A program made the position numbers and the translations under genes. A DNA stretch of 64,000 nt from an uncultured Bacteroidales bacterium (GTDB taxonomy: Bacteria; Bacteroidota; Bacteroidia; Bacteroidales; Muribaculaceae), in NCBI GenBank assembly GCA_902774055.1, contig CACYGX010000006.1:36243-100242 (forward strand), read 5' to 3'. Below the pieces are notes generated by a model. That model searched no databases. It saw nothing but the letters and a program-made list of their open reading frames with translations, and was not told the origin of the DNA. The first letter of the stretch is position 1; every line of letters starts with the position of its first letter. Positions 14,297 through 64,000 of this stretch are shown here, one piece after another.

Positions 14297-17200
14297 ATGA
14301 GTCTTAAACATTTACTCTTGTTCCTTGTCATGGCACTTGCCACGCTTGGTGTTTCGGCCCAGGTGAGCGGTACGGTGTTAGATGAGAACAACGAACCCGT
14401 TATCGGTGCTTCGGTCGTTCAGCAGAGCAATCCCAAGAACGGCGTTGCAACCGATTTCGATGGTCATTTTACCTTGAATGTGCCAGCAGGCACTAAGATT
14501 AAAGTCACCTATGTGGGCTACGAGGATGCAATCGTTGCCGGTAAGTCTGGAATGACGATTGTCATGAAGCCCAAGGGTGAAATGCTTAACGAGGTCGTTG
14601 TCACCGGTTACCAGAAGGTGGACAAACGACTCTTTACTGGTGCTACCCAGAGCGTCGATGCCGAGAAGACAAAACTCTCGGGTGTTGCCGACGTCAGCCG
14701 TGGTCTTGAAGGCCGCGTGTCGGGTGTGCAGGTTCAGAACGTGTCCGGTACCTTCGGTACAGCGCCCAAGATCCGCGTGCGCGGTGCTACCTCTATCTAT
14801 GGTAGCTCCAAGCCCCTCTGGGTTGTGGACGGTGTGATTCTGGAGGACAACGTGGACATTAGTGCTGACGACCTCTCGTCGGGTGACGCTACCACGCTGA
14901 TCGCCTCGGCCGTTGCCGGTCTTAACGCCGACGATATCGAGAGCTTCCAGATCCTGAAGGACGGTTCCGCTACCTCGATCTATGGTGCCAAGGCTAACGC
15001 TGGTGTGATCGTTATCACCACCAAGACTGGTCGCAAGGGTGCAACCTCCATCAACTACACGGGTGAGTTCACCTACCGCCTGAAGCCCAACTATCGCGAC
15101 TTCAACATCTGCAACTCTCAGGAGCAGATGAGTATTCTTCGCGAGATGGAGCAGAAGGGCTGGCTCGAGTATGCCAACCTGGTGAACAGCACCACCTCGG
15201 GTGTTTATGGCCAGATGTACAATTTGATGGACTCTTACAATCCTGAGACCGGCCAATTCGGTCTGCCCAACACTCAGAATGCCCGCAATCAGTATCTGCG
15301 TCAGGCTGAGATGCGTAACACCGACTGGTTCGACCTGTTGTTCAACCACAACGTGATGCAGAACCACGCCGTGAGCATCTCGGGTGGTACCGACAAGGGC
15401 TCGTTCTACACCTCGGCATCGGTAATGACCGACCCGGGATGGTACAAGAGCAGCCGCGTTGAGCGTTACACCTTTAATGCTAATGCTATCTACAACATCA
15501 CTGACAAGATCAAAATCAAGATTCTGAACAGCAACAGCTACCGTGACCAGAAGGCTCCCGGTACCCTGAGCCAGAATGTGGACGTCGTTTACGGTGAAGT
15601 AAGGCGTGACTTCGATATCAACCCCTACAGCTTTGCCCTGAACACTGCACGTACCCTTGACCCCGATATGCGTTATGTGCGCAACTACACCACCTTTAAT
15701 ATTTTTGATGAGTTGCAGTCCAACTTCATCAATGTGGACGTTACCGACCTGAAGTTCCAGGGCGAGTTGAGCATTAAGCCCATCCTCAAGCAGGACCAGA
15801 GCCTTGAGTTCAACTTGCTGGGTTCGATGCGTTCGGTGAACTCTGAGCAGAACCACTACGTTCTCGAGAACAGTAACCAGGCCAACGCATACCGTGCCGG
15901 TATCATTCCCGAGAATGCGCTTATCCGTTCGTCCAACTCCTACCTCTACACTGATATCGACGTGCCCAACGCACTGCCCGAGAGTGTTATGAAGGAGGGT
16001 GGTATGCTGTTCTTCTCCAAGAATAGCCTGAAGACCTTTGACTTCCGTGTCACTGGTCAGTACATGAAGGACTTCAACAATGGCAAGCACCTCTTGAACC
16101 TCTATGCAGGTATGGAGGCTAGCCGCGTTGACCGTTTCTATCAGTCTGCCGACTTCTGGGGCGTTGTTTATGACAACGGTAACCTGGCTTCGCTGAACTA
16201 CAAGCTCTTCAAGCAGATGCAGGAAGAGAACGGTTCCTACTACAGCCTGGGTAACACCAAGCGCCGCAACATGGCTTACTTCGCTAATGCCAACTATGCG
16301 TTGCTGGGTCGTTACATTATTAATGGTACCATCCGCTATGAGGGTTCTAACCTCATGGGTATGACCAACCAGAGCCGCTGGCTCCCCACCTGGAACGTAT
16401 CGGCTGCATGGAACATCTATGACGAGCCGTTCTTCCAGAACACTGCCCTGTTCCAGAAGGGTACCCTCTCCTATGCTAAGCTGCGTGTGAGCTACTCACT
16501 GACTGGTGAGAGTGGTCCTTCGGGATATGCTAATGCCGAGGCTCTCTATTATCCCATTCGCCCCTGGCGTCAAGAGATTGAAGCTGTGGAGACGGGTCTC
16601 TACATGGCAGGTCTGGGTAACAGCGAGCTCACCTATGAGAAGAAGCACGAGTTCGACCTCGGTGTTGACCTCGGTTTCCTCTACAACCGCATCAACCTCG
16701 TGTTTGACTGGTACTTCCGTAACAACTTCGACCTGATCGGTCTTATCCGCACCCAGGGTATCGGTGGTGTCACCACTAAGTATGGTAACGTGGCCGAGAT
16801 GAAGTCACATGGTGTTGAGTTCACCATTTCGTCACGCAACATCGAGCCCCGCAGCGCTGGTGGCTTCGGTTGGAACACCGACTTGACCTTCTCCTATGCT
16901 GTGACCGAGATCAGCAAGCTGCAGTCACGTTCACGCGTCATCGACCTCGTGCGTGGTAGCGGTTTCCCCTTGGAGGGCTATCCCCACCGTGCTATCTTCT
17001 CGATTCCTTACGAGGGTCTTGACAGCCATGGTCTGCCCTTGGTAAGAGATGAGCACGGCAATGTATCGAACATTGGTGTAAACTTCCAGGAGTATGAAAA
17101 GTTGGGCTTCCTCAAGTATGAGGGTCCCGTTGATCCCACCATCACCGGTGGTTTCGGCAACACCTTCGACTTCAAGGGCTTCCACCTGAATGTCTTCATG

Positions 17201-55141: not shown

Positions 55142-55214
55142 GCGGTAGTAGCTCAGTTGGTAGAGCATCAGCTTCCCAAGCTGAGGGCCGCGGGTTCGAG
55201 TCCCGTTTACCGCT
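55142..55214 (+). tRNA. tRNA-Gly (CCC)
   Basis: 73-base cloverleaf: acceptor GCGGTAG/TTACCGC, anticodon loop TTCCCAA giving anticodon CCC, stem TCAGC/GCTGA, T loop TTCGAGT. CCA not encoded. The integrase gene begins 236 bases downstream, so the 3' half of this tRNA is the likely attachment site. Confidence 0.95.
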
Positions 55215-55224
55215 CAAACAAAGT

Positions 55225-56948: not shown

Positions 56949-58910
56949 TTATGGGTACACTATTTTGTAAAAATTGCCTTTGATGAGGTGGGACATGCCG
57001 TCTTCGGTAAAGGTTGCGGTCAGTTTCTCGCAGAGGTAGCGTTTGCCGTCGATGTGGAAGACTGAGCGGACGTTGGGGATCTTGTCGGCAAGGAAGGAGA
57101 AGGTGTATTTCTTCTTCTGGTCGACGGGATAGAAGGTGTCGCGCTCAACGCCCTGGCCGTAAGCAGCATTGTTGATGCGCAGAGAGCAGGTCTTGCCGCT
57201 ATTGATGCGATTCCAGGTGACCGAGAGCACGCCCGAGTTGCTGTTGGGAGCCGGTGCGTAATAGGAGTAATCGAGGTCGAAGGTGTCCGTCCAGGGATGC
57301 GGGTGTCGGGGCGAGAACATCATGTAACTGCCCCACCAGAAGGCAACAAAGAGCTTGTCGAAGACGGCTCCGCTCTTCTCCCGCTTCCCGGCGCTGACCG
57401 TGGGCAGGGCGCCCCACTGGATGGGCACGTCCTGGTCCACCTTCTCCGACGAATGGGGGCGGCCCGTGTGCGACTGGTTGGAGTAGGCGTTGTCACCCTC
57501 TCCCGTCTCGCCGCACTCGAGGAATGGGACGAGACCGATGATATCGTCCGTTTCGTCGAGCCAGGCGGGAACGATCTTCATCTCATCCACATCATCGGGG
57601 TTGTCCCTGTCGATGATCAGCGGGCCGAAGCGGTTGATGGGAACAAGTCGGGTGACGTTGCCCCAATTGTCCCACTCCTCTCGGCCACCGCTGCGGTATT
57701 TCACCCGCTTCATCACCTCAAGCACGAAGTAGGTATCCACGTCCTGCGCGTAGTGCAGGCCCCACACTCCGCCGCTGTCGGGAACGGCCTCCTGCCGGAC
57801 GTTGCTCGAGATCAGGGCGTTGAGCGTGGCGTGGGTGGTACACCTTACCGTGCCGTCTGCCTTGGTCATCTGGTCGATGTACCACTGGCAGTTGTAGATG
57901 TTGTCAAGGCGGTGGCCACCTGCGGCGTAGCCCTGGTTGAGCATCGCCTTGTAGCCGCTCTTCTCCTCGTCGGTGGTCACCTCCACAGTGAAAGCGTCAA
58001 CGACCTTTGAGATGTGGATGGTGCCGGCCGCCTCGATGTTGTCCGCGGTCGCAGTGCAGGCTATCGTGCTGCGTGCGTGGTCAATGTCGAACTCACAGAG
58101 CAGGAGTTTCTCCAGTTCCTGGAAGAACTCGTTGACCGTCCAATGCGGCAAAGCACTCGCCCATGTGCGGTTGCTGTTGGCGTATGGCGTGGTGTTCATC
58201 AGCAGCAGGTGGCGGTAGTCGCTCTGCTCCCACAGCGAGAAGTCATAGGCGTAGCCCAGGGCTTCGCAGATCTTCTTCGTCAGCCACAGCAGGTACGGCT
58301 GGAACGAGAGGCCACGGGAGAAGTCCGTGTCGTCCTCGTCGTCGGGGTTGACCTTCCACTCGTACTTGCTGGCAGATGCGTTCCACTTGGCGCAGTTCTG
58401 CAGGTTGCCGCTGGAGTTGTTGACCCACGGCAAGGCGGTGTAGTCCTCCGTCCTGCCCCAGAGCTGCGCCGGAGAGGCGTAGGACACTTCCTCCCCGGGT
58501 CGTGGCTGGGCCCCGCCGGTAGGCGAATTGTCGGGATAGATGCTGGGCCACTTGCCCAGGTCGAGCTCGTCAATGTAGGTCTCATCGAAGCGTGGGAAGA
58601 AGTTCTGGTAGCTGCGCTTCTCCAGGAACTGCACCTTGACTGATTCCTGCGTGATGCCGGTGATCACGACGGCACCTCGCTTGAAGAAGTTGGTGTCCTG
58701 CAGCACCGCATCGAAAAAGATGTCGCCTGCATCTACATCCTTGCGGGTGATCATCCCGAAGATGTCAAGGTTCTGCGGACAGTCTGCCAGCGGCAGTTCT
58801 ATCTCCATGCTGTAGTCGTCGGCATCGGTGAAGATGCGGTTCTCCGATACATACTCTATCGAAGACCCCTTCTTCAGCGCTGCCTGTTTTCCGTTTATCG
58901 TCAGTATCAT
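56949..58910 (-). CDS. phage tail-associated protein
   Basis: 653 residues, starting MILTINGKQAALKKGSS. No signal peptide. Beta-rich and aromatic-rich throughout, as in baseplate or tail-tip proteins; it lies downstream of the tape-measure gene in the ancestral order, where distal tail proteins are encoded. I do not recognise a precise family. GC-rich, unlike the cargo genes just upstream. Its promoter region and first 17 codons are copied as a relic at 61081-61189, which proves that it was once adjacent to the tape-measure 3' end. Confidence 0.65.
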   Translation of the reverse strand: MILTINGKQAALKKGSSIEYVSENRIFTDADDYSMEIELPLADCPQNLDIFGMITRKDVDAGDIFFDAVLQDTNFFKRGAVVITGITQESVKVQFLEKRSYQNFFPRFDETYIDELDLGKWPSIYPDNSPTGGAQPRPGEEVSYASPAQLWGRTEDYTALPWVNNSSGNLQNCAKWNASASKYEWKVNPDDEDDTDFSRGLSFQPYLLWLTKKICEALGYAYDFSLWEQSDYRHLLLMNTTPYANSNRTWASALPHWTVNEFFQELEKLLLCEFDIDHARSTIACTATADNIEAAGTIHISKVVDAFTVEVTTDEEKSGYKAMLNQGYAAGGHRLDNIYNCQWYIDQMTKADGTVRCTTHATLNALISSNVRQEAVPDSGGVWGLHYAQDVDTYFVLEVMKRVKYRSGGREEWDNWGNVTRLVPINRFGPLIIDRDNPDDVDEMKIVPAWLDETDDIIGLVPFLECGETGEGDNAYSNQSHTGRPHSSEKVDQDVPIQWGALPTVSAGKREKSGAVFDKLFVAFWWGSYMMFSPRHPHPWTDTFDLDYSYYAPAPNSNSGVLSVTWNRINSGKTCSLRINNAAYGQGVERDTFYPVDQKKKYTFSFLADKIPNVRSVFHIDGKRYLCEKLTATFTEDGMSHLIKGNFYKIVYP

Positions 58911-58918
58911 AAAGAGTA

Positions 58919-58951
58919 GCGGTTGATTTGCCGCAAAGGTAAATCAACCGC
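58919..58951 (-). promoter_or_regulatory. promoter with an inverted repeat around its -7 element
   Basis: TACCTTTG on the minus strand (plus 58935-58942) lies in the loop of an 11-bp perfect inverted repeat (58919-58929 and 58941-58951), just before ATG 58910. The relic copy at 61137-61168 keeps the pairing with different bases. Confidence 0.7.
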
Positions 58952-58980
58952 GTATGCCTCGAAAAGACGACGTTATTTCT

Positions 58981-59712
58981 TTATCTTATATAGTGATATT
59001 GCATTAAATCATATCCGTTATATTGATAATAATATGTACTATCAGTACATTTCTGATAAATGACAGATTCAAAGAAACCTTGCTCTCCAACATTCCGCTC
59101 GAAGATTCTATTATTTTCCATATAGACACTTGCAGAGATATAATCATCTTTTAAGTGATTATAAAAAAGATGCTTTAAATCTTTTACCGCAGACTGATAG
59201 CTATCGTACCCATATATCTGAAATTTTCCAAAAGGATAAATTGATATAGAATCATTAAGATTGTCTCTCACTCCCACAAATGCTTTTGCTGCATAATTAC
59301 GACCTTTATCAACTGTTTTATATTCTTTGTTTTCTATCGTTTTTTCCTCAATACAAACAAAAATAAAACACTTTAGGCCATCTTCATTATATAATATTGT
59401 ATCTGTTGACACATTGATGTATTCATTCACAGGGAGAGGCGCTTGTAAAAACTTTTTACTATTATGATAATACACTCCAGCAAAAGGCTTATAGTAGTAG
59501 GCTACATCCATGTTATGAATTACATCCGTGCCATAATTAACCCGAATATATTCGATGTTTCTCATGATGCAATCCGCAACTTGACGCTTATCGCGCTCAT
59601 AGATTTCTGGTGTAATCAATGGGCACTTTGGTTGCTTTATTTGCTTAGGCTTGCAGGAAAAAAGAGACAGCAAAAGAAGAACTATTAGTGAAACAGACTG
59701 CATTCTCATCAT
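58981..59712 (-). CDS. cargo lipoprotein 4 of the prophage
   Basis: About 243 residues; signal peptide with lipobox SLFSC (cysteine about 20). The mature part is lysine/tyrosine-rich with no recognised domain (motifs GRNYAAKAFVGV, SIYPFGKFQIYGYD). Strongly AT-rich. It has its own TACCTTTG promoter (59737-59744) but no copy of the tape-measure end before it; the preceding cargo stop overlaps the promoter dyad. By analogy with phage morons a role at the cell surface, such as superinfection exclusion, is possible but unproven. Confidence 0.7.
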   Translation of the reverse strand: MMRMQSVSLIVLLLLSLFSCKPKQIKQPKCPLITPEIYERDKRQVADCIMRNIEYIRVNYGTDVIHNMDVAYYYKPFAGVYYHNSKKFLQAPLPVNEYINVSTDTILYNEDGLKCFIFVCIEEKTIENKEYKTVDKGRNYAAKAFVGVRDNLNDSISIYPFGKFQIYGYDSYQSAVKDLKHLFYNHLKDDYISASVYMENNRIFERNVGEQGFFESVIYQKCTDSTYYYQYNGYDLMQYHYIR

Positions 59713-59736
59713 CAGTAGCTATTAGAGTTTGTACGG

Positions 59737-59757
59737 CAAAGGTAGCGATTATTTCGC
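59737..59757 (-). promoter_or_regulatory. cargo promoter with GCGA...TCGC dyad
   Basis: TACCTTTG on the minus strand (plus 59737-59744), immediately preceded by GCGA/TCGC (59745-59757). The same arrangement stands before the other three cargo genes. Confidence 0.65.
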
Positions 59758-60267
59758 TTGTAACTTCTTTATAATAACACTTTTAACCAGTTCCCTGTTG
59801 TCTTCAAGATAATCTAATATTCCACAAGGGAACTTGCAATCATCATCAAAAACGTCAAACTGCATTCCTAAATCACGTGCAGGTGCTATATAATTGGACT
59901 CATAAAAAAGAATGAAAGCTAAATCTCCTTTTCTAAGATTTACCTTTTTGGAACAAATATTTTGTGCCAAGTCAGTAGTATCTGAAATACTTTCGGCCAC
60001 ATTCATCAATATTCTACCATCTATTTTTCTATCCTTGAAGGCTTTGTAATCATCATTCTGTATGAAACAATTATCAAGACAGTTCCAGATGATGTTGAAT
60101 TGTCCGTATCTGATATTAATCAGTGAGTCATTCATAACCATTTCATTATCCGCTTGAGAAATAGCCACATCTTTAACTTCCTTTTGTTCCTTCCCTGAAC
60201 AAGAAGACAACAAGCAAAAAAATACTAAAGAAATAGCTAGGAATTGATGTAATCTGAGATTTTCCAT
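59749..60267 (-). CDS. cargo lipoprotein 3 of the prophage
   Basis: 172 residues; lipobox LLSSC (cysteine about 23) followed by SGKEQKEV. The mature domain contains several cysteines (WNCLDNCF, DDDCKFPCG) that could form disulfides. AT-rich, no family recognised. Immediately upstream is repeat copy C with the promoter at 60293-60300. A 25-base leader separates promoter and ATG. Confidence 0.7.
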   Translation of the reverse strand: MENLRLHQFLAISLVFFCLLSSCSGKEQKEVKDVAISQADNEMVMNDSLINIRYGQFNIIWNCLDNCFIQNDDYKAFKDRKIDGRILMNVAESISDTTDLAQNICSKKVNLRKGDLAFILFYESNYIAPARDLGMQFDVFDDDCKFPCGILDYLEDNRELVKSVIIKKLQAK

Positions 60268-60292
60268 AATTCAATATTATTATTGCTAACCG

Positions 60293-60374
60293 CAAAGGTA
60301 GCGAAAACTACGCTTAAACACTTCATTTTCTTTTATTTTTCGGTGATTTATTATTCATGAGGCGCTGGTACTCG
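60293..60374 (-). repeat. copy C of the tape-measure 3' end plus promoter
   Basis: Reading on the minus strand: codons matching EYQRLMNNKSPK and KRK, stop, then the GCG...CGC dyad and TACCTTTG (plus 60293-60300). The most diverged of three copies; the others are 60984-61075 and 61807-61899. Confidence 0.85.
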
Positions 60375-60465
60375 CCAGAGTTTTATAATTTTGGAAAAGT
60401 TGCTCAACCGCTTAAGCCTTGAAAAGACGCGCCGAAAAATTGGAATCAACTTTCGATAATCTATG

Positions 60466-60951
60466 TTATTTGATTTTAAGGAACCAAGAAACACCCTTCC
60501 ATTTTGTATCGTATTCAATTTTGTATTCAAATTCTCTTGGATATGACTTTTCTTCAATGATGCTTTTCAGTAAAGAGTCAACAGGTTTAGGGTCATACAA
60601 TTGCCAAATCATTCTGCAATGGCCATTAGTTGTTTCTCTAGCAAGGAATAATGCATTAGGATGAACTGGGTCACCAATAATCTGTTTGGAAATACCTTCA
60701 AGATACTCTATTACCAATTGGCTTTCATCACTAGTAGGCATCTCATTATCAGCCAATTCTTTAAATTCCATCCATAGAGAGCATGTCCACCCAAAAATGT
60801 TTTTATGTTTGAATTTCCGAAGAGCAGTATTTAGAACTATAACAGATGGTAATCCGTTAAGTGTGTTAGAAGCAATAACGAGATTATCTTCAGGGATAAT
60901 CAACTTGACATTATTGGCGTCTTTTTTAAAAAAGTCTGTTAAGAAACTCAT
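60466..60951 (-). CDS. cargo protein 2 of the prophage, cytosolic
   Basis: 161 residues with no signal peptide, the only non-exported cargo gene. It opens MSFLTDFFKKDANN, similar in style to the unknown at 47602-48081. Features such as NIFGWTCSLWMEF and the final WKGVSWFLKIK recall DUF695-type proteins, which is a low-confidence guess. AT-rich. Preceded by repeat copy B and its promoter at 60984-60991. Confidence 0.65.
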   Translation of the reverse strand: MSFLTDFFKKDANNVKLIIPEDNLVIASNTLNGLPSVIVLNTALRKFKHKNIFGWTCSLWMEFKELADNEMPTSDESQLVIEYLEGISKQIIGDPVHPNALFLARETTNGHCRMIWQLYDPKPVDSLLKSIIEEKSYPREFEYKIEYDTKWKGVSWFLKIK

Positions 60952-60983
60952 AAATTCCGATTTATCGTTCTGATTATGATGTG

Positions 60984-61075
60984 CAAAGGTAGCGTTTTTT
61001 TCGCCCGAACACTCATTTTCTTTTAGATTTCGGTGATTTATTATTCAAGAGGCGCTGGTACTCGTCCTGCGCCTG
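60984..61075 (-). repeat. copy B of the tape-measure 3' end plus promoter
   Basis: Minus-strand codons for QAQDEYQRLLNNKSPKSKRK and stop, then the dyad and TACCTTTG (plus 60984-60991). The left neighbour on the minus strand is the truncated 5' end of the tail gene, fused to it in frame-disregarding fashion at about 61076. Confidence 0.9.
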
Positions 61076-61080
61076 TTTGA

Positions 61081-61189
61081 CGAGCCTTTCTTGAGGGCGG
61101 CTTGCTGCCCGTTGATGGTGAGTATCATAAACAAAAGCGGTTGTTCACCACAAAGGTAGAACAACCGCGTATGACTGGAAAAGACGTGC
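61081..61189 (-). pseudogene. relic of the 5' end of the tail-associated gene
   Basis: Contains the promoter dyad, ATG (61125-61127) and about 17 codons reading MILTINGQQAALKKGSS, then breaks off into repeat copy B. It matches 58865-58972 at the main gene with many substitutions, so it came from a related but not identical phage or diverged after duplication. Confidence 0.88.
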
Positions 61190-61210
61190 AAATAGAAAGC
61201 TATTTATATG

Positions 61211-61774
61211 CTATCTGACATATTTTTCAATAGTGTCATTAGGTACATTGCCTTGCTTTAATAACCTTATTATGTTATTCTTGTCAAAATGGTCTTTCGC
61301 TCTATTACTTGGATTTTTTGGAAAGTCTTCACCCAGGTTGACTAAAATATCTATATGATTGAACATTTGGACTAGCAGTGTATCTTCTACAAAAGCAAGT
61401 ATTCTATACTTTCCGTCCCACAATAAAAGTTCATTCTTATTCTCTTTATAATACCATTTGTCGAGATATTCGATATCGTCAATGATTGGATCATATTCTA
61501 CATATTGGTTGATCTCGTCATTATAATCAACATGCAGCAGGTTTCCATTACTCTTAAATTTGAAGCAACCAAAACCATGAACCAAGTATTTTGATGTTGA
61601 GTCTAGATCCTCAAACATTGGGTTTGGTCGGCCATATACATACCACATATTACCCTTTTGGCTGAGACGTTTTTCAACTTCGTTTTGACATGATGCCAAG
61701 ACCAAGAGTAATACGATACTAAATAATAGACTAATTGTTAGTCCTCTTTTATCGGGCAGCTTTATGTTTGTCAT
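61211..61774 (-). CDS. cargo lipoprotein 1 of the prophage
   Basis: About 187 residues from ATG 61774; an ATG overlapping the tape-measure stop (61840) is open but lies upstream of the promoter at 61807-61814. Lipobox VLASC, then a domain with several aromatic residues (GNMWYVYGRPNPMF, GDYRILAF-like strands) and a C-terminal helix. No family recognised. AT-rich. First cargo gene after the tape-measure gene. Confidence 0.7.
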   Translation of the reverse strand: MTNIKLPDKRGLTISLLFSIVLLLVLASCQNEVEKRLSQKGNMWYVYGRPNPMFEDLDSTSKYLVHGFGCFKFKSNGNLLHVDYNDEINQYVEYDPIIDDIEYLDKWYYKENKNELLLWDGKYRILAFVEDTLLVQMFNHIDILVNLGEDFPKNPSNRAKDHFDKNNIIRLLKQGNVPNDTIEKYVR

Positions 61775-61806
61775 ATTCATAATCCATTCTTCTTTATCCG
61801 ATATGG

Positions 61807-61899
61807 CAAAGGTAGCGAATTTTTCGCCATAAACACTCATTTTCTCTTAGATTTCGGTGATTTATTGTTCATGAGGCGCTGGTACTCGTCCTGCGCCTG
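61807..61899 (-). repeat. copy A: true 3' end of the tape-measure gene plus cargo promoter
   Basis: The original tape-measure C-terminus (QAQDEYQRLMNNKSPKSKRK, stop) followed by GCGAA...TTCGC and TACCTTTG (plus 61807-61814). Copies B and C repeat this block. Confidence 0.9.
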
Positions 61900-62166
61900 C
61901 TTTATGCCCTTGTCGCCGGTCACGGTGTTGACGGTGACGAAGGGCTCGTCCAATCGCTCGTTGAGACGGGCGATGATCTCTTTCAAGTCTTTACTCTCCT
62001 GCACTATCACCTGCGGTTGGCTCTGCGCCAAAGCCATAGGCGCGGTGATTGACCTGGACACGTCGGCACTGCGAAGCGAGCCGATCGTGTTGGTGCGCTG
62101 CGCGTAGTCCAGAGCCTCGATCAGAGGACGGGCAACGGGTGAAGCGACCAGTTTCTGACTCGCCAC
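61837..62166 (-). pseudogene. frame-displaced C-terminal part of the tape-measure protein
   Basis: 109 codons in another frame than the rest of the gene, beginning with the same VASQKLVASPVARPL segment because of the 79-bp duplication, then continuing with the natural C-terminus. Deleting one repeat copy would join it to the upstream frame. Confidence 0.88.
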
Positions 62167-64000
62167 CGTTGGTGCGCTGCGCGTAGTCCAGAGCCTCGAT
62201 CAGAGGACGGGCAACGGGTGAAGCGACCAGTTTCTGACTCGCCACCCATTCCCCGGCATGGACCACGCCAGCCACCTCGTCGGCACGGCCCTTGCGGGTG
62301 AAACCGCCCTCGCCGTAGCCCTGCGCCTGGCTCGCCTGTTGCTGCTTTTTTATTGCGGCCACCTGCATGGCACCTGCGGCCACTGCCATGGCAGCAGCTA
62401 TAGGGGCGATGATGTAGCCCACGACAGGTATGGCGGCAGCACTGGAGTAGGCGTTCAAGGCGGCAGTCGCTGTCTGCGCCACGGCCTGGATGACCTGCAT
62501 GGCGAACAGTTTCCTGTTGGCCTCGTCCTTGACCTTGGCCACCTCCTTCTGCTTCTGCTGTTCAAGGCGTTTCGTCTTGAACTTGTTGCCCTCGGCCATC
62601 GAGATCTCGCGCTCGTAGCGTTTCTCGATGGCGGCTGTCTCTATCTCCATCTCGGACTGTACAAGAGAGGAGATTTGGCTGAAGATGGATGACATGCCCG
62701 AGGTCAGGGTCTCGACGCTCTTGGTGACGGCCTGCCCGCCGTCGCCTTCGAGCCAGTCGAGCACGTCCTGGTTCCACTGCTGCAAGGCGTTCTTGTCATC
62801 CTCTCCCCCAAGCTGGTTGTACCGCTTCTTCAGGGCGAGTTTCGCCTTCTCGTAGGCCTCATCGATGCGGAGTTTCTCCCTGGCATTGTCGCCTGCGGCT
62901 TTAAGCTCCGCCTCATAGACGGCATCGAGGTTGACCATCGCCTCGTTGTAGAGGGCGAGGTTTTCTGCAGCATTGTTGCCGAAGAACTCGTCCTTGAGCT
63001 TCTGCAGTTCTTGCTGGTGCTTGCGCTGCTGCTCCTCGTACTCCTTCTGGCGCTTCTGCTGGTCCTTGACCAGGGCGGCCAGGTAGGTGTCGTGGGCCTT
63101 GATGTAGTCCTGCCAGGCCTTCTCGTCCACGTTGGGCTTGGCCACATCGAACTCCTCGCCGTTTTCCTCGGCTTGGCGTTTCGCCTCTTCCCAGTCTTTG
63201 ACGGGCCTGTTGGCCTGCTGCTCGTAGATCTTTTCGAGGGTGCGCAGTTGTTGCAGCTCGATAAGTTCCATGTTGGCGTTGTACTGCTCCGTGGTGATCT
63301 TCCCGTCGATGTAGCGTTGCTGCATCAGGGCCTTGATTTCCCTGTAGGCTTCCTGCTCTTCCTCGATGGTGAACTTGTTGGCCTGCTCCTGCTGCTTGCG
63401 CTGGGCCTCGCGGTACTGCGCCTCGATGGTCAGGCGCTCCGTTGCGCTGAGATCAGTATGAGCCAGCCTCTGCTTCTCGAACTCGACGGCTATCTCCAGC
63501 ATCCTGTTGGTGTAGTCCTCGTAGTTCTTCTGGCCCGTGGCGTAGGCGATGCGGTTCAAGGCTTCCTCCCGTTCTCTCCACTCCTTCTCGGCCTTGAACC
63601 TGTCTTCGGCCTTGGCGTGGCTGGATCCGCCACCTGTGGCTTTGTCGGGTTTTCCCGACGGCGAATAGCTGCCGCCCGGGGGCGTTGCATTGTTGGCGGT
63701 GCTGCCGCCGGTGCCTCGATAGTTCATCTCTGAACGATACTGGGCCAGCAGGTCTTGCGCCTGCTTGGGCGACAGTTCCTTGTACTCGCCCTGGTTGGAG
63801 CCGTCAACGAAGACGAGGGCTCGGCCTCTCGTCTCCGACTTGACGATGGCTTCCAGCCCTTCGATGGCACGCTTGAGCCATGCGGTATCGACTTTCCTCA
63901 AGGGGGCGTTGGCGTTCTCCATCGCCTCGATGCCCGCCATGCCCTTGCTGTACTCGCCCTGGTGGCGGTACATGTTGTTGACGATACCTGCAGGGCCGGT
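61991..64000 (-). CDS. phage tail tape-measure protein, 5' end outside window, frameshifted near 3' end
   Basis: Open to the right edge, so the N-terminus is missing. More than 650 residues: long coiled-coil stretches rich in Glu, Gln, Lys and Ala (about the middle 350), then a hydrophobic Ala-rich membrane-like segment (IIAPIAAAMAVAAGAMQ), then GYGEGGFTRKGRADEVAGVVHAGEWV, which is characteristic of tape-measure C-termini in bacteroidal prophages. It sets tail length and may form the DNA channel. The exact 79-bp tandem repeat at 62089-62246 shifts the frame, giving about 40 aberrant residues and a stop at 61991. Confidence 0.85.
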   Translation of the reverse strand, partial: TGPAGIVNNMYRHQGEYSKGMAGIEAMENANAPLRKVDTAWLKRAIEGLEAIVKSETRGRALVFVDGSNQGEYKELSPKQAQDLLAQYRSEMNYRGTGGSTANNATPPGGSYSPSGKPDKATGGGSSHAKAEDRFKAEKEWREREEALNRIAYATGQKNYEDYTNRMLEIAVEFEKQRLAHTDLSATERLTIEAQYREAQRKQQEQANKFTIEEEQEAYREIKALMQQRYIDGKITTEQYNANMELIELQQLRTLEKIYEQQANRPVKDWEEAKRQAEENGEEFDVAKPNVDEKAWQDYIKAHDTYLAALVKDQQKRQKEYEEQQRKHQQELQKLKDEFFGNNAAENLALYNEAMVNLDAVYEAELKAAGDNAREKLRIDEAYEKAKLALKKRYNQLGGEDDKNALQQWNQDVLDWLEGDGGQAVTKSVETLTSGMSSIFSQISSLVQSEMEIETAAIEKRYEREISMAEGNKFKTKRLEQQKQKEVAKVKDEANRKLFAMQVIQAVAQTATAALNAYSSAAAIPVVGYIIAPIAAAMAVAAGAMQVAAIKKQQQASQAQGYGEGGFTRKGRADEVAGVVHAGEWVASQKLVASPVARPLIEALDYAQRTNGGESETGRFTRCPSSDRGSGLRAAHQHDRLASQCRRVQVNHRAYGFGAEPTAGDSAGE
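62089..62246. repeat. exact 79-bp tandem duplication in the tape-measure gene
   Basis: 62089-62167 and 62168-62246 are identical. 79 is not a multiple of three, so the duplication breaks the reading frame. Confidence 0.97.

Follow-up and report, generated by a model that had tools for sequence, protein, structure and literature searches.

Cargo cassettes flanked by tail-gene ends in a Muribaculaceae prophage family and at recurrent chromosomal positions

Tail genes, cargo and repeated gene ends in the window

We analysed a stretch of 64,000 nucleotides (the window) from an uncultured Bacteroidales bacterium of the Muribaculaceae (GenBank assembly GCA_902774055.1, contig CACYGX010000006.1, positions 36,243 to 100,242), in which a prophage carries four accessory genes, here called cargo, between two of its tail genes. 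Genomes, contigs and loci are labelled G, C and L, respectively; the source genome is G000, and the window lies on G000:C6 (100242 bases). The contig ends where the window ends, inside the gene for the prophage's tail tape-measure protein (TMP). Read from the host side, the order is tRNA-Gly(ccc), an integrase gene on the plus strand, the tail gene that follows TMP (hereafter H) on the minus strand, the cargo slot, and TMP on the minus strand. A first-pass annotation of this DNA had described AT-rich cargo between the tail genes, and the composition bears this out, with 32.5-33.7% GC in the four cargo genes against 59-60% in the tail genes (60.5% in the TMP fragment, 58.9% in H). The features are as follows.

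61991..64000, minus: TMP gene, its 5' part lying past the end of the contig (tape-measure match to PHROG 2854, E 2.5e-12)
61838..61990, minus: copy 1 of the TMP 3' end, the T arm (repeat comparison; T-arm mapping in related loci)
61806..61840, minus: cargo promoter 1, TAnnTTTG at 61807-61814
61211..61780, minus: cargo gene 1 (P0001), 189 aa, lipobox-like
61081..61189, minus: H promoter and 5' end as a relic, joined at junction 1 to TMP-end copy 2 (repeat comparison)
60982..61080, minus: TMP 3' end copy 2 and promoter (repeat comparison)
60466..60951, minus: cargo gene 2 (P0002), 161 aa, DUF695 match (E 1.7e-6)
60391..60429, minus: H promoter as a relic, joined at junction 2 to TMP-end copy 3 (repeat family D6)
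60292..60374, minus: TMP 3' end copy 3 and promoter (repeat comparison)
59749..60267, minus: cargo gene 3 (P0003), 172 aa, lipobox-like; 98% aa copy in L130
59732..59757, minus: fourth promoter copy, between cargo genes 3 and 4 (repeat family D7)
58981..59712, minus: cargo gene 4 (P0004), 243 aa, lipobox-like
58911..58972, minus: H promoter region, TAnnTTTG at 58934-58941
56949..58910, minus: H, intact tail gene (P0005), 653 aa
55450..56682, plus: phage tyrosine integrase at the prophage end (PHROG 1, E 2.1e-25; Pfam)
55142..55215, plus: tRNA-Gly(ccc), the likely attachment site; the same tRNA lies beside prophage L108 and stand-alone array L149

The TMP 3' end together with a promoter is present three times, at 61806-61899, 60982-61075 and 60292-60374, as had been claimed; in global alignments copies 1 and 2 share 86 identities with 7 mismatches and 2 gaps, and copies 1 and 3 share 73 with 9 and 13. 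The claimed duplication of the H 5' end is equally real, with an intact copy at about 58861-58972 and a relic at 61079-61189 (82 identities, 25 mismatches and 3 gaps, again by global alignment). Beyond what had been claimed, the H promoter has a third relic at 60391-60429 and the cargo promoter a fourth copy at 59732-59757. The length of the repeats and the same arrangement in other assemblies make a chance origin implausible. Each cargo gene in the window is preceded by TAnnTTTG, the -7 consensus of Bacteroides sigma-ABfr as given in the excerpted text of PMC7366714; promoters are called throughout by this motif only. Three of the four cargo products (1, 3 and 4) are lipobox-like, the motif being judged by eye, and the second matches DUF695.

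H itself has no Pfam match, no PDB match at E up to 1 and two weak PHROG matches (E 0.07 and above); one weak relative was found among phage records (34% identity over 59%). Within TMP, an exact 79-bp tandem repeat (62089-62246, copies identical) shifts the reading frame. The window prophage may be defective owing to this shift, or the repeat may be an assembly error.

An optional cargo slot in the phage family

Relatives were gathered from viral contigs, genomes of the genus and named genome contigs (the best 80 of 101, giving 79 loci), the last titled mostly Prevotellaceae, Muribaculaceae or Bacteroidales and many of them from rumen or other ruminant gut samples. Both the TMP end and the H start were present at 42 related loci. 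The slot is occupied in 34 of these, with 0.5-3.7 kb between the two genes, and empty in eight (-3 to 18 bp), where H overlaps or nearly abuts TMP. The source genome holds both states, occupied in the window and empty on C7. Median GC is 35 for cargo, 56 for the TMP end (T) and 52 for H.

Occupied and empty slots differ in their promoters. TAnnTTTG follows TMP in 30/34 occupied slots and precedes H in 33/34, as against 0/8 empty slots at either position; the background is 38 of 375 windows of 90 bp in cargo interiors. The same pattern is seen where the TMP frame reaches at least 1000 aa (27 of the 42; 20 occupied, 7 empty), with promoters in 17/20 and 19/20 occupied slots versus 0/7 and 0/7 empty ones. 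The remaining loci comprise ten in which the start of the contig or locus interrupts TMP and five with a short TMP frame (the window, L113, L130, L141 and L155). The 42 include two loci with a short H (L127, L174), as well as L007 and L146, which have equal slot length and 100% identical cargo protein matches; L096, L151, L152 and L162, of prophage class with no TMP end on the stretch, lie outside the set. The phage family therefore has an optional TMP-H cargo slot: a full slot holds cargo with its own promoter and a second promoter for H, and an empty slot has neither. This pattern suggests that insertion brings its own promoter plus one for H.

What occupies the slot varies greatly. Only 10 of 528 pairs of occupied loci have a cargo family in common (30% aa identity over 80% of the shorter protein), a comparison that leaves out L015, L094, L095, L010 (ORFs inside H), L169, L161 and L013:5520-6152. 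The proposal of a reusable cargo site in the tail module is supported by these slot states and this turnover, and the alternative of one old unit always carrying the same genes is refuted, since related slots are occupied or empty and their cargo mostly differs.

Cassettes outside prophages: positions, junctions and cargo

The 5' end of H matched 44 of the 61 genomes of the genus. Full-length H (an open frame of at least 500 aa) is present in 22, and short 5' pieces (<200 aa) in 33, with 22 genomes holding short pieces only; the short-piece counts rest on rows of which some split a single piece in two, a few sit at the ends of contigs and the weakest matches are uninspected. Both the T end and the H start occur on 36 of 46 fetched stand-alone loci, many in tandem. 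T arms extend to about -820 and H arms to about +560 at most, the detached H piece in L101 excepted; this limit is partly definitional, as any locus retaining more of H or TMP was assigned to the prophage class. Cassettes of the form [TMP end - cargo - H start] thus occur at recurrent places in the chromosome with the remainder of the phage missing. In the titles and abstract openings of the literature covered, no paper describes chromosomal cassettes flanked by phage gene ends. Beyond the genus, H relatives occur in 35 of 149 genomes and 14 of 30 genera of the family, and 30 of the 34 H matches outside the genus lie in open frames of at least 500 aa, the other four being shorter (162-453 aa). 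Stand-alone cassettes look like a trait of this genus in our sample, where a genus-derived query would miss diverged short pieces.

The arms are often interrupted by palindrome-like inserts of about 60-70 bp at the same positions across genomes (H+24, +63, +228 and +328; T-221 and -64), with examples at L070:8441-8508, L059:11651-11718 and L172:210-269. At L171 (~15744-15806) such an insert joins T and H arms without cargo, as if mediating a deletion.

Clustering of flanking proteins (47 loci) placed many arrays at a few common chromosomal positions. From their sequences we take the neighbours of locus I to be a TonB-receptor-like gene on one side and a cobalamin gene on the other; in L098 a cobalamin riboswitch is found upstream. 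The locus is empty in 21 genus genomes (11-139 bp between flank matches; 70 in the source genome). L098, L100 and L116 hold 2.0-3.9 kb there, and these occupied copies mostly agree in their outer ends. Locus II, at tRNA-Arg(tct)/tRNA-Ser(tga), holds arrays L014 (C4 of the source genome), L131, L164, L172 and L168, in the last of which tRNA-Ser alone was called. The tRNA-Arg site also hosts L111, with H and an integrase and TMP cut by the contig end, and L113, which keeps H, an integrase and an upstream tail-module gene and has TMP reduced to 371 bp. At tRNA-Gly(ccc) the window and L108 are prophages and L149 is an array. L127, with a full TMP, a truncated H and no integrase match, adjoins tRNA-Ser(cga), as do L097, L103, L104 and L139, which bear H and integrase.

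Sequences that we call endA and endB adjoin tRNA-Arg in L003 and L004. We considered them as a simple element end and rejected the idea, as endB is also found alone near cobalamin genes; no Rfam family matched endB in the five sources searched. The endB repeat of about 165 bp sits beside cobalamin-type genes at L274:7277-7441, where no arm was found nearby, and at L277:6129-6293, where an H piece adjoins. In the source genome, C46 carries a terminase-like match and a 52-bp piece of the tRNA-Arg-side repeat, and is possibly part of another prophage.

Loci at the same site seldom share cargo. A common cargo family was found in 4 of 56 same-site pairs (0/21 at locus I, 0/6 at II, 1/6 at III, 2/21 at IV with L171 added, 1/1 at V and 0/1 at VI). 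Cargo ORFs at least 90% identical in aa at different loci make up 46 pairs, of which 12 link different assigned sites, five the same site, seven two prophages and one a prophage and the chromosome, with 21 at unassigned sites. L116 at locus I is a mosaic, with a left flank 87% identical to L098 and a right flank 81-83% identical to L098 and L115; its 2.6-kb cassette is 98.0% identical to that of L121 at locus V and 97.5% identical to L114, whose source genome, G032, has an empty locus I. Other near-identical blocks join L125 with L131 (1.08 kb, 98.4%), L107 with L112 (4.36 kb, 98.8%) and L105 with L134 (578 bp, 95.8%), and prophage L108 shares blocks with the chromosomal L106 (516 bp, 96.7%) and L117 (374 bp, 96.8%).

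Relatives of the window's cargo genes 3, 2 and 4 occur in that order in L130 (RUG497) at 96.7-99.4% DNA identity, with other cargo interleaved; TMP is there represented by an arm of only ~150 bp and H (at least 743 bp) runs off the contig, so that L130 may be a partly collapsed prophage. Gene 2 has copies at 98-99% aa in L124 and L130. For gene 4, L130 holds a copy (region 99.4% DNA) and the chromosomal L134 a relative (76% DNA over 910 bp), and the family of gene 1 extends to L101 and L168 (55-79% aa within the family).

The junctions seen are gene-end fusions, and they recur. Junction 1 of the window (H-T) is matched within 1-2 nucleotides in the chromosomal array L134, where the cargo differs on both sides; junction 2 is found again in L130 and L103, and arrays L125, L112, L119 and L056 have forms resembling it; and a junction of H+191 with T-168 is found in L098, L114 and L117, at three different chromosomal positions. 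These shared junctions and the permuted order of cassettes back the earlier idea that [tape end - cargo - H start] blocks were joined by recombination. Stepwise accretion within the window, as originally envisaged, becomes unnecessary: with both junctions found in other loci, joined units may arrive ready-made.

The cargo scans covered 40 of the 45 representatives from slots and 52 of the 61 from stand-alone loci. Pfam matches were scattered, nearly all of the families shown (25 of 32 for the slot set, 25 of 38 for the stand-alone set) being matched by one member each. The 40 slot representatives include CrcB, CdiI_3, DUF5714, redoxin, aspartyl protease, histidine kinase, Mrr and others, and the 52 stand-alone ones GDSL lipase, BspA LRR, SUFU, M50, a small multidrug resistance protein, an OMP barrel and others; one stand-alone cargo is an IS1595 transposase. 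Twenty PADLOC models (e.g. PD-T4-3, PDC-M64) were each matched by one of the 40 slot representatives, and none of the 52 stand-alone representatives matched any model. The suggestion that lipoproteins acting in superinfection are the theme of the cargo does not hold as a general rule, given this functional mixture and lipobox motifs in 13/61 prophage-slot ORFs and 20/105 elsewhere, by a crude scan whose ORF sets include some spurious ORFs and some later dropped from the cargo-family comparison. As a whole, the cargo resembles a general pool of accessory genes more than a set dedicated to exclusion.

As to the carrier, H shares its contig and strand with terminase-like matches in G000:C7, G045:C34 and G010:C13, the match in G010:C13 containing stops, and the G045 prophage has portal-like, holin-like and endolysin genes; the carrier is therefore likely a true phage. 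Between its terminase-like match and its tail genes, G045:C34 (L276; L275:1-10000) also has tens of kb of AT-rich DNA, whose long accessory genes include one that is Rhs-like by eye.

Accounts of cassette movement

We favour, with fairly good confidence, a reading in which collapsed prophages leave cassettes behind and the gene-end arms allow cargo to be exchanged by homologous recombination. Prophages would collapse at their attachment sites, retaining useful cargo with short arms, and these arms would permit cargo swaps among arm-bearing loci, incoming or induced phages included, probably by relaxed phage-type or RecA recombination. Tandem T/H junctions would arise by rare illegitimate joining and then spread with the cassettes, and positions away from tRNA genes would need a further insertion step. 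Homologous recombination in the arms is the simplest account of the recurring junctions, the shuffled cassettes and the exchange of cargo between sites, and prophage collapse explains the arrays at tRNA sites. In support of collapse, the tRNA-Arg and tRNA-Gly sites hold H- and integrase-bearing prophages in other genomes, and partly collapsed forms exist, which strengthens the reading as a whole.

Several observations weigh against it. No recombinase and no direction of exchange was identified. The scanned loci of I and III-VI contain no tRNA, and no compared prophage occupies these positions, apart from a single-gene flank match of L159 to L121 (locus V), so the origin of their cassettes is not explained by prophage collapse at tRNA sites. 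The prophages at locus II are not plainly intact and the class of L130 is uncertain, both of which weaken the reading. Recent exchange between phage and host is thinly documented, as only one of the 46 near-identical cargo pairs links a prophage with a chromosomal site, and four of the seven prophage-prophage pairs involve L130. Blocks that end in arms are by themselves no proof of a crossover site, the arms all being alike. As loci were collected by matches to the H 5' end, the sample favours pieces in which the H arm survives, and all genomes are drafts, mostly metagenome-derived by title, in which arms are repeats and some joins are possibly misassembled.

That last concern, carried to its end, would make the pattern an artefact of short-read assemblers joining cassettes through repeated arms. 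The arms are indeed repeated sequence, from tens to hundreds of bp long, in which many contigs end, but the pattern recurs in records from several projects; G059 (L116) and G023 (L115) each have one H 5' match and hence no second H arm to misjoin, yet their locus I cargo differs (L115 reaches the contig end on the left, and T arms were not counted); and the L116 cassette differs by 2% from that of L121 and so is not the same molecule. We consider an artefact very improbable. Plain prophage decay, with each stand-alone array a vertically inherited leftover of an old prophage and arms without a continuing role, fits the coincidence of tRNA-Arg and tRNA-Gly arrays with sites of H- and integrase-bearing relatives, the intermediate look of L113 (TMP 371 bp) and L127 (full TMP, truncated H, no integrase match), and the ~60-70 bp inserts that interrupt arms at identical positions in several genomes. 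Vertical leftovers should, however, have common cargo, and 52 of 56 same-site pairs have none; near-identical cassettes also sit at different positions in different species. Decay alone is already contradicted in part, and we think it rather unlikely.

Cassettes might instead be moved mainly by site-specific integrative elements or satellites, through an integrase and attachment sequences and not through the arms. In L119 and L132 an H arm (to +160) is followed directly by a gene for a 453-aa tyrosine integrase (L119:11161-12522, L132:3032-4393), which suggests that cassettes can also sit in small integrative elements, and units in L013 and L171 are separated by a tRNA-Arg-like att sequence. 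Relatives of this integrase (E up to 1e-60) occur in 11 of the 61 genomes, and of 13 such loci only L235 (= L132) and L239 (= L119) have arms within the flanks (<=1.5 kb), the others being relatives without nearby arms. Against this stands the absence of any match to the window's, the 396-aa or the 453-aa integrase in 43 of 46 stand-alone stretches (other integrases were not searched); with these three queries an integrase lies directly beside the cassette only in L119 and L132, and further off in L012. Near-identical cassettes also occupy positions I, III, IV, V and VI, whose scanned loci have no tRNA. Such elements are an improbable main vehicle. Lateral transduction of defence genes, as presented in the excerpted text of PMC12829572, is another possible delivery route.

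Returning to collapse and arm-mediated exchange, we offer tentatively, and with some doubt, a broader extension: the tail-gene ends might serve as standard homology arms of an open cassette-trading network. In it, phages would take up and release cargo at the tail slot, and collapsed prophages at fixed positions in the chromosome would be docks where cassettes are stored, stacked and sent out again to other species, with no dedicated integrase required.

Relation to known systems and significance

Morons are accessory phage genes that were acquired horizontally and are transcribed independently, in the portion of PMC6469090 consulted. The slot cargo resembles them in having its own promoter (by motif), deviating GC and a position between phage genes, and differs in its arms and chromosomal copies. 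The SopE moron cassette moves between unrelated Salmonella phages, likewise one cargo cassette in different phages, but SopE is a single cargo, and we know of no chromosomal arm loci for it.

In the sections available to us, Rousset et al. 2022 (PMC9122126) describe small loci (~1-5 kb) with high gene turnover between two conserved phage genes, propose homologous recombination as one step of exchange and suggest a cos-adjacent mechanism. The slot described here is alike in being a small, high-turnover locus between two conserved phage genes. By comparison with that account, the flanking gene ends are here copied with the cassette and tandem relics persist, most cargo matches no defence model, and arm-flanked cassettes also lie outside prophages. 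De Paepe et al. 2014 (PMC3945230, in excerpt) report that temperate phages gain defective-prophage DNA by relaxed (Rad52-like) recombination in E. coli. Such homology-driven exchange between phage and remnant is the likely mechanism here as well; their system concerns lambdoid mosaicism in general, whereas ours has a dedicated cargo position with recurrent chromosomal counterparts. The principle is known, and what is new here is that gene-end arms are copied with the cargo and that arm-flanked cassettes stand on the chromosome.

The extent of gene exchange between phages, satellites and host is left open in the text seen of Rousset et al. (PMC9122126). In this family the relics of exchange are still readable, and empty and occupied sites exist on both phage and chromosome, so that rate, direction and breakpoints are directly measurable. 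The cassettes offer a concrete path along which uncultured rumen bacteria of different species could pass accessory genes to one another, and they suggest that phages and hosts trade genes through common gene ends.

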